Shown here: piece by piece, positions 14,880 to 21,356 of the stretch | Layout: each line of letters opens with the position of its first letter | How positions within the stretch are numbered: the stretch's first letter is position 1 | NCBI GenBank assembly: GCA_903919375.1 | Contig: CAIXHZ010000042.1 | Span: 1-37,872, forward strand | Length of the DNA stretch: 37,872 nt | Origin: an uncultured Actinomycetes bacterium | GTDB taxonomy: Bacteria; Actinomycetota; Actinomycetes; Nanopelagicales; Nanopelagicaceae | Direction: 5' to 3' | The notes under the pieces: generated by a model | The model's input: the letters and a program-made list of their open reading frames with translations, nothing else | The model's database searches: none | Told to the model about the DNA's origin: nothing | Program-made: the position numbers and the translations under genes

Positions 14880-15131
14880 GTGGGGTTACCCATCCGGAGT
14901 TGCATCGCTTGTCGAAAGCGTGAGAATCAGATCGATCTTCTTCGGGTAGTTCGATCCGGAGGCCGCGTGCTTCCCGATCCAACTAAGCAGATGAACGGTC
15001 GTGGCGCTTGGTTACACCCCCATTGTGTGGAGATGGCAATCAATCGCAGAGCTTTTGAGCGAGCACTGAAGTCGGAAGAGATTCTCGATATCAGTGAAGT
15101 TCTGAAGTTCGTTGAAGGAAGCAGTAACTAG
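14880..15131 (+). CDS. ylxR: YlxR family RNA-binding protein
   Basis: RSCIACRKRENQIDLLRVVR...GRGAWLHPHCVEMAINRRAFERAL; between nusA and infB. Confidence 0.9.
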   Translation: MGLPIRSCIACRKRENQIDLLRVVRSGGRVLPDPTKQMNGRGAWLHPHCVEMAINRRAFERALKSEEILDISEVLKFVEGSSN

Positions 15132-15156: not shown

Positions 15157-15286
15157 GCCAGAAAATTTCTGGCCCATGAGAAGGAGCAAAAAATGTCTTC
15201 CTTTACAAGGGAACTATCACAATCATGAGCGCCCAACGCTCATGAGTAAGACATTCATTTAGGCTCCAATCACAAACGTGGGGCCT
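15157..15286 (+). ncRNA. Structured leader region upstream of infB (several hairpins)
   Basis: GCCAGA-AAATT-TCTGGC (15157-15173). Outer stem AATGTCTT/AAGACATT (15192-15199 with 15248-15255) enclosing CCTT-TAC-AAGG (15200-15210) and a perfect 9-bp hairpin TCATGAGCG-CCCAA-CGCTCATGA (15223-15245). AGGCTCC/GGGGCCT (15261-15267 with 15280-15286). Confidence 0.6.
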
Positions 15287-15310
15287 CCAGAGCAAGACAG
15301 GAAGGCAACT

Positions 15311-18010
15311 GTGGCCAAGGTCCGCGTTTACGAGTTAGCAAAAGATTTAGGATTAGAGAGCAAAGAGCTCCTCGCTAAGTTACAAGAAGTTGGCGAGTTT
15401 GTTCGTTCAGCATCCTCAACTGTTGAAGCACCAGTCGTGCGCAAGTTGATGGAGAAGTTCCCTGATTTAAAGGCAGTGGCTGCAGAAGCGCCAAAGCCAG
15501 TCAAGAAGGCAGCAGCTAAAAAGGCAGCGGCTAAGCCAGCAGCCCCCACTCAAGAAGAGATTGAAGCGGCGCTCGCCTCGCTTCCTGAAGATACGCGTTC
15601 ACAGATTGCAGCAGCGCAAGCAGCTGTACCTGTTGCACCTGTAGCTCCAGCAGCAACATTTACTCCAGCAGATGGCGTGGCAACACCCGCGGTCCCTGCA
15701 TCTCCAGCTTCAGTCAAACCACCAGTTCCCGGCGCACCATCGCCAGCATCGATGATGCCGCGTCCACCACGCGCGGGAAATAATCCATTCTCTGCCGGCA
15801 GCACACCAATGCCACGTCCACCAGCGCAACGTCCATTGCGTCCAGGTGAGCGTCCACCCATGGCTGGTGCACGTCCCGGTTCAGTTCGTCCAGGTTTTGC
15901 AGCACGTCCACAAGGTGCACGCCCCGGAACACCAGGTGCAGGCGGTCCAGGTGCACGTCCAGGTTCTACCGGCGCACCAGGTTCTCCGTATCGTTCACCA
16001 GCAGGTGGCGCGGGTGCACCAGCCGGCGGTGGCAACTTCGGTCCCAATAAAACTGGTGGACCAGGTCGCTTCCAACGCGGTGGCGCAGCAGGAGCATTTG
16101 GAAAGCAAGGCGGAAAATCTCGCAAGGCGCATAAGAGTAAGAAGGCGCTTCGTGAAGAGTTCGACAATATGGCAGCCCCATCATTAGGTGGCGCAGTTAT
16201 TCCTCATGGTGATGGCAAGACCGCTATTCGACTTCGTCGTGGCGCATCTCTTATGGACTTTGCCGAGAAGATCGGCGCAGATCCAGCTGCCTTAGTTTCA
16301 GCACTCTTCCACTTAGGTGAAATGGTGACTGCAACGCAATCAGTTGATGAAGATACCTTCATGATCCTTGGCACCGAACTCGGATACACCATCCAAGTGG
16401 TTAGCCCAGAAGATGAAGACCGTGAACTTCTCCAAGAGTTTGATATCAACCTAGAGCAAGAGCTCGCTGATATCGATGAAGAAGATCTCGTCGTGCGCTC
16501 GCCGATTGTGACCGTCATGGGCCATGTCGACCACGGTAAGACTCGCTTGCTCGATGCCATTCGCCAAACTGAAGTTATTAAGTCAGAAGCTGGCGGAATT
16601 ACTCAGCACATTGGTGCCTACCAAATTCATCATGATCACGATGGAGTTAACCGCGCAATTACCTTTATCGATACACCAGGTCACGAAGCATTTACAGCGA
16701 TGCGTGCTCGTGGTGCCAAAGTCACCGATATTGCCGTTCTTGTTGTTGCAGCCGATGATGGTGTGATGCCTCAGACCATTGAAGCTCTCAACCACGCACA
16801 AGCAGCCGATGTTCCTATCGTCGTTGCCGTGAACAAGGTTGATAAAGAGGGTGCGAACCCAGATAAGGTCCGCCAACAGCTCACGGAATATAACTTGGTC
16901 GCTGAAGAGTACGGTGGCGACACCATGTTCATTAATGTCTCTGCTAAATCAGGTGAAGGTATCGATGACCTCATCAATGCCATTCTCTTGGTAGCAGATG
17001 CAGCGATCGATCTTCGCGCAGTGGCCGATGATGTTGCTCGCGGTGTTGCTATTGAAGCCAACCTCGATAAGGGTCGTGGCCCAGTCGCTACCGTCCTTGT
17101 TCAACGTGGAACTCTCCATGTCGGAGATGCCATCGTTGCCGGTGGCGCCTTTGGTCGCGTTCGTGCGATGCTCGATGAAAATGGAACTCCAGTCGATGAA
17201 GCTGGTCCATCTCGTCCAGTTCAGGTTCTGGGATTCACTTCGGTTCCTGGCGCTGGCGATACCTTCATGGTTGCCGAAGATGACCGCACTGCCCGACAGA
17301 TCGCTGAGAAGCGACAGCTCGCTATGCGAAATGCACTTCTTGCCAAGACTCGTAAGAAAGTCTCGCTCGAAGACTTCATGGAGCAGTCCAAGATCTCTAC
17401 TCTTAATCTCATTATTAAGGGTGACGTATCTGGTTCGGTCGAAGCGCTCGAAGATGCACTTATGCAGATCGATGTCGGCGCCGAAGTTGATCTTCGCGTT
17501 ATTCACCGTGGCGTTGGTGCAATCACCAAGGGCGATGTCACTCTGGCATCGGCTTCAACAGCAGTCATCATTGGCTTCAACGTTAAGCCAGAACCACAGA
17601 CTGCCATCTTCGCTGATCAAGAGGGCGTCGATATTCGTTTCTACACCGTCATCTATCAAGCAATCGAAGAGATCGAAGCTTCACTCAAGGGCTTGCTCAA
17701 GCCAGAGTACGAAGAAGTCGTTCTCGGAAATGCCGAAGTTCGCGATATCTTCAAGTCGAGCAAAGTTGGCAATATTGCCGGTTGCCTCGTCCAAGATGGA
17801 TTCATTCGACGCAATGCCAAGGCGCGTACCTTGCGCAATGGCGTCGTGATCGGCGAAAACCTCAGCATCGATTCCCTTCGTCGCTTCAAGGATGATGCCA
17901 CTGAAGTCAAGGATGGATTTGAGTGCGGTATCGGACTCGGCTCCTTCAAGGAACTCGAAGTGGGCGACGTTATCCAGACGTACGAGATGCGTGAAAAGAA
18001 GCGGGCCTAA
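15311..18010 (+). CDS. infB: Translation initiation factor IF-2
   Basis: [43 protein letters not shown]-terminus [39 protein letters not shown] starts at GTG 15311 with AGGAAGG upstream; the track start at 15278 lies before this RBS, inside a hairpin region. Confidence 0.96.
15700..16130 (+). repeat. Low-complexity Pro/Gly/Ala/Arg-coding segment within infB with near-repeats of GGTGCACGYCC
   Basis: Repeated RPG/ARPG/GAPG codon blocks ([42 protein letters not shown]); expected for actinobacterial IF-2 N-terminal regions. Confidence 0.75.
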
Positions 18011-21252: not shown

Positions 21253-21356
21253 GAGAGCCTCGCGCATTTATTAGGAATTGGTCCTCGGTAGTGGTTTACG
21301 GATATGAGATCCGTGAACTTCGATCGAAGATCCATTTCTAGGTGTGCGGGGCTCTC
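21253..21356 (+). ncRNA. Structured 5' leader of pnp, consistent with the Actino-pnp RNA motif
   Basis: Outer 14-bp stem GAGAGCCTCGCGCA (21253-21266) with TGTGCGGGGCTCTC (21343-21356), two G-U pairs. Inner hairpin TACGGAT-ATGAG-ATCCGTG (21297-21315) and CTTC-GATC-GAAG (21318-21329). The GGTCCTCGGTAGTGG segment resembles leaders of other actinobacterial pnp genes as I remember them. Confidence 0.8.

Follow-up and report, generated by a model that had tools for sequence, protein, structure and literature searches.

The ylxR-infB intergenic region

The window, by which we mean the whole stretch of 37,872 nt that was analysed, carries ylxR and infB, the gene for initiation factor IF2, separated by a gap of exactly 179 nt between the stop of ylxR (15131) and the GTG start of infB (15311). 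This gap holds three mini-ORFs (uORF1 to uORF3) chained to one another by ATGA stop/start overlaps, which are followed by a hairpin and by a strong infB Shine-Dalgarno (SD) sequence (Table 1). The length of the gap and all the hairpins and stems named in the initial annotation were found exactly where they had been placed; the three overlapping mini-ORFs, and the TCATGA present in both arms of the central hairpin, had been overlooked there. The main feature of the region is the chain of three uORFs, rather than the hairpins of the gap.

Table 1. Elements mapped in and around the ylxR-infB gap (positions in the window)
Element	Position	Strand	Basis or remark
ylxR, upstream neighbour	14880..15131	+	Pfam YlxR
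Hairpin GCCAGA/TCTGGC	15157-15173		Located in sequence
SD-like GAAGGAGC of uORF1	15180..15187	+	Position; mean anti-SD duplex energy
Outer stem of the initial annotation, arms AATGTCTT (15192-15199) and AAGACATT (15248-15255)	15192..15255	+	Present; without covariation
uORF1, ATG...TGA, MSSFTRELSQS*	15193..15228	+	Stop overlaps ATG2 in ATGA
Central 9-bp hairpin of the initial annotation, arms TCATGAGCG (15223-15231) and CGCTCATGA (15237-15245)	15223..15245	+	Arms contain both TCATGA stop/start overlaps
uORF2, ATG...TGA, MSAQRS*	15225..15245	+	Start overlaps uORF1 stop
uORF3, ATG...TAG, MSKTFI*	15242..15262	+	Start overlaps uORF2 stop
Hairpin AGGCTCC...GGGGCCT, between uORF3 stop and infB SD	15261..15286	+	Fold; swap test
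infB SD CAGGAAGG	15298..15305	+	SD-like 4-mer in 152/152 leaders
infB (IF2), GTG start	15311..18010	+	Pfam IF-2, GTP_EFTU and IF2_N above cut-off

A terminator or promoter was sought in the gap and none was found on the plus strand, in agreement with the earlier view that the region is not a simple terminator. The comparison with Rfam that the initial annotation had suggested was run on the window at the gathering score, where no family matched the leader, and on 12 leaders with E values up to 5, where no relevant family appeared and the sole match was a sub-threshold miRNA. Elsewhere in the window, at 21277-21335, lies an Actino-pnp cis-regulatory RNA (RF01688; 69.7 bits, E 1.1e-13), an element already described.

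Conservation of the uORF chain and of its start signals

Leaders were scored as strict chains when stop and start overlap, and as relaxed chains when these lie a few bases apart. Among 160 distinct leaders, which are kin by descent and hence not independent events, 135 have ATGA or TAATG overlaps and in a further 17 the stops and starts of the three ORFs are near-adjacent. The DNA of the gap was matched in 26 of the 27 genomes of the window's genus, in many of which uORF1 differs in length and sequence while its stop still falls on ATG2 or a few bases upstream of it. Other genera within the same family have strongly diverged DNA and yet keep the chain, for instance as MTL*/MSTTRL*/MSRSI*, where the overlap is TAATG, or as MKLK*/MSSFTS*/MRSNN*. 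Three ORFs were found in 61 of the 69 distinct leaders of this family (45 strict and 16 relaxed); the other eight have only one or two under the rules used, so the full chain is dispensable in the family. Four leaders from a single genus of the family (L115, L118, L119 and L122) have one mini-ORF left (MRRQ or MRKQ), followed by a hairpin-like repeat, and their chain seems to be reduced or to use other start codons.

Outside the window's family, 90 of the 91 distinct leaders from the same class have a strict three-ORF chain and the remaining one a relaxed chain. The usual forms are MSAR*/MSTQR*/MST..* and, in the Mycobacteriaceae type, MSTP*/VKSR*/MTMRHS*, whose uORF2 has a GTG start. Leaders L154, L163, L168-L172 and L179 all have this GTG start (CCGTGA), the start codon having been switched and the overlap retained. 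A natural variant without the hairpin is leader L180 (G185, minus orientation, last 260 bases), which reads MTSR*/MSARNR*/MSTPM* and then the infB SD. Judged by these comparisons, a predicted three-uORF chain and a hairpin are present upstream of infB in nearly all the Actinomycetes sampled.

A pattern scan of GTDB contigs gave at least 119 matches; among the matches listed, 106 precede an IF2 match at the distance of a gene start, five further ones read as infB in pieces that are cut or unmatched, and eight look like chance, in unrelated sequence. The genera named among the matches listed are Nocardia, Rhodococcus, Gordonia, Mycolicibacterium, Corynebacterium, Nocardioides, Actinomadura and Nocardiopsis. 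A contig titled as a Spirochaetaceae MAG (L289, JAJAYQ010000041.1) also carries the leader pattern ahead of an IF2 match, and is probably a mis-binned actinobacterial contig.

Chance expectation was gauged with 20-kb stretches of control DNA from other genomes, scanned as 170-nt windows. Chains of at least three ORFs occurred in 4 of 4680 such windows from the class and in 25 of 4680 from AT-rich DNA of the window's family; when the leaders themselves were dinucleotide-shuffled, they arose in 126 of 16000 cases. The three-ORF chain was found in none of 30 infC leaders and in none of 18 infB leaders from other classes of the phylum. Since the leaders share descent, the argument from conservation rests on the divergence of the sequences with the overlaps retained.

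This divergence is considerable. uORF1 ranges from 3 to 13 codons across leaders, uORF2 has 4-6 codons in nearly all of them, and the 152 three-ORF leaders encode 61 distinct peptides in uORF1, 72 in uORF2 and 101 in uORF3. In the same 152 leaders, uORF1 stops with TGA in 126 and TAA in 26, uORF2 starts with ATG in 141 and GTG in 11, and uORF3 stops with TAG (83), TAA (49) or TGA (20). Because the peptides are free to vary and the overlaps are fixed, selection appears to favour translation in itself over any encoded peptide or stalling signal, and the constraint on the chain looks translational.

The distribution of SD signals was scored in the three-ORF leaders. An SD-like 4-mer precedes the infB start in all 152 of them and ATG3 in none (0/152); for ATG2 it was found in 3 of the 91 leaders outside the window's family and in 37 of the 61 inside. 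Many leaders outside the family have no clear SD before ATG1, where the 4-mer occurs in 32 of the 91; the mean anti-SD duplex at this site is -6.3 kcal/mol in the window's family. Ordered by mean anti-SD energy, the strongest signal is that of infB, followed by ATG1, ATG2 and ATG3. The lack of an SD of its own is a property of ATG3, and of most ATG2 sites outside the family, but not of infB, which has one.

RNA structure of the leader

The gap folds better than its shuffles, of which 0/200 were as good; z is -3.3 over its full length and -5.0 over the core. RNAalifold, applied to a MAFFT alignment of 42 three-prime blocks, returned only 4 pairs, and because loops misalign in this alignment, covariation was measured instead as the duplex energy of cognate arms against that of arms swapped among non-redundant sequences, a test in which phylogeny is incompletely modelled. 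By this measure, the hairpin upstream of the infB SD covaries class-wide (-19.2 kcal/mol for cognate and -15.2 for swapped arms, z -9.8, 0/2000 swaps as good), and also within the window's family (z -4.5, 0/2000 swaps as good). No covariation was detected for the outer stem at ATG1 (z -0.4 in the family and -1.1 in the rest of the class) or for the pairing of the upstream region with the tail of uORF1 (z -0.7 and 1.0), which indicates that relatedness alone gives no large z here.

These results modify the picture given by the initial annotation, which had suggested a cis-regulatory leader, an autoregulatory site or an RNase III processing site for infB, possibly folded into a three-way junction. 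A conserved cis-regulatory infB leader, unmatched in Rfam, is supported, and compensatory changes do occur in it, but they lie in the flanking hairpin before the infB SD and not in the outer stem, which leaves the junction unsupported; the conserved parts are the three-uORF chain and the hairpin before the SD. The perfect 9-bp central hairpin is present in the window, but its swap test gave z 0.1 in the family, where only 7 non-redundant sequences were available, and a marginal z of -2.9 in the rest of the class (n=14). In several related genera it has shrunk to a few pairs, and the mini-ORF overlaps are kept there. The core of this hairpin follows partly from the overlaps, since TCATGA, which constitutes the stop/start overlap (a Ser codon, TGA and ATG) and is found in both arms, is self-complementary.

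The stop of uORF3 is usually a few bases from the covarying hairpin, which in turn lies a few bases upstream of the infB SD, and a ribosome terminating on uORF3 should consequently open the hairpin. The GGAGC of the uORF1 SD can also pair with the GCTCC at 15263-15267, a pairing that the swap test supports in the window's family only (z -3.8). Because the segment after the uORF3 stop is at the same time the 5' arm of the hairpin, the two pairings are mutually exclusive, and a switch between them is possible in this family.

Discussion

The comparative data, namely the conserved chain, the SD-less ATG3 (and most ATG2 outside the window's family), the variable peptides and the covarying hairpin, suggest that the uORFs are probably translated and coupled to one another. 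We therefore propose, with somewhat better than even confidence, that the infB leader is translated and that serial termination-reinitiation controls the synthesis of IF2. A ribosome would initiate at uORF1 and terminate, re-initiate at uORF2 and next at uORF3, whose starts overlap the preceding stop and lack an SD, and halt beside the hairpin that lies between the uORF3 stop and the strong infB SD, so that IF2 synthesis would hinge on successive termination-reinitiation events. Such coupling has precedents, since an AUGA overlap drives termination-reinitiation at ppe2 of Mycobacterium tuberculosis (PMC11260477) and AUGA overlaps support it in Escherichia coli and Haloferax (Huber 2019, PMC6728339). 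infB could nevertheless be initiated independently of the chain, through its own strong SD. The eight family leaders with fewer than three ORFs and the many ATG1 sites outside the family that have no clear SD 4-mer also speak against the model.

The least certain part of the proposal, which we put forward tentatively and with more doubt than belief, is that the chain senses how active the initiation factors are and exerts feedback on infB. It is suggested by the need of re-initiation for IF2 and by the reported ejection of short peptidyl-tRNAs by IF1 and IF2: work by Karimi in 1998 is said to have found that IF1 together with IF2 removes such molecules from ribosomes. Given these two effects, ORFs of 4-6 codons upstream of infB would be well placed to respond to IF2, and high IF2 could cause either more re-initiation along the chain or more drop-off within it. 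We lean toward negative feedback. In E. coli, IF2 enhances and excess IF3 reduces re-initiation (PMC2268962); the effect of IF2 overproduction in that study, for which a mutant initiator tRNA was used, would taken alone imply positive, not negative, feedback. The leader might even be a bacterial counterpart of GCN4, a possibility that we hold with similar reserve, in which three overlapping mini-ORFs count ribosomes, gauge the activity of initiation factors and determine how much IF2 is made, with one IF2-dependent step of re-initiation (or drop-off) contributed by each mini-ORF.

Other explanations of the same anatomy were considered. The mini-ORFs could act as a simple ribosome relay that delivers ribosomes to infB, melts the hairpin or shields the leader from Rho or nucleases, and senses nothing. 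The anatomy expected is identical, ribosome delivery is a role proposed for short uORFs in a 2025 review (PMC12548453), and the hairpin is close enough past the third stop to be openable by a terminating ribosome; however, a single uORF would suffice for this purpose, whereas three in series throughout the class suggest that their number matters, and we consider the relay rather unlikely. That the leader is instead a structured RNA or a protein-binding site, as the initial annotation proposed, with the ORFs incidental, we regard as improbable. The strong fold in the window, the covariation of the hairpin before infB and the capacity of the uORF1 SD to pair with the segment after the third stop in the window's family are all in keeping with it, but the outer stem does not covary, and structure does not alone predict overlaps that survive changes in the lengths, start codons and stop codons of the uORFs.

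An even smaller chance is given to the view that the GATGAG repeats serve a protein or an RNA as binding sites, with the reading frames as a by-product: most of the class does have ATGAGC/T recurring at its start codons, yet where ATGA has become GTGA, in leaders of the Mycobacteriales type, or TAATG, in part of the window's family, the frame is kept and the motif is lost. Least credible of all is an attenuator of the whiB7 kind with ribosome-stalling leader peptides. A translation gene preceded by short uORFs and a hairpin would fit such a device, as would the WhiB7 peak upstream of infB in Mycobacterium abscessus (PMC10727445), but the peptides are unconserved and the plus strand of the gap has no intrinsic terminator. 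Serial termination-reinitiation remains the reading that we prefer.

IF2 is essential, and to our knowledge no cis-control of infB has been described in Actinomycetes, the class to which Streptomyces and Mycobacterium belong. A literature search, which covered few subscription papers, found no earlier account of the infB leader; its parts, such as overlapping ORFs and mycobacterial uORFs, are already known, and it is the conserved triple chain at infB that is apparently undescribed. If true, a class-wide three-uORF relay at the gene for an initiation factor would give the study of bacterial re-initiation a natural and testable system. As the listed members of the Streptomyces SigR regulon include infB (PMC5472188), the leader may also tie the control of infB to translation-stress regulons, both that of SigR and, considering the peak in M. 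abscessus, that of WhiB7.

Among known systems, the stop/start overlaps and the starts with no SD (ATG3) or mostly a weak one (ATG2) resemble the termination-reinitiation coupling of ATGA/TGATG gene pairs (PMC6728339) and of the ppe2 uORF (PMC11260477). Unlike those gene pairs, the infB leader has three mini-ORFs in series, mostly of 4-6 codons and fixed upstream of infB class-wide, and a hairpin and a strong SD separate the last uORF stop from infB. It shares with the whiB7/wblC attenuator of actinobacteria the placing of a short uORF ahead of a translation-stress gene, but has neither a terminator nor a conserved peptide. The IF3-dependent start-codon control of Streptomyces sigR is another case in which initiation-factor activity gates translation, as proposed here for infB, although it relies on a rare GTC start codon and has no uORF chain (PMC5472188). 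A further parallel is yeast GCN4, where, as summarised in PMC11550727, re-initiation depends on an initiation factor: in both, several short uORFs precede a single main ORF. The dependence on IF2 is conjectural at infB, and the infB leader differs from GCN4 in being bacterial, in the overlap of its uORFs and in that the gene under control itself encodes the initiation factor.
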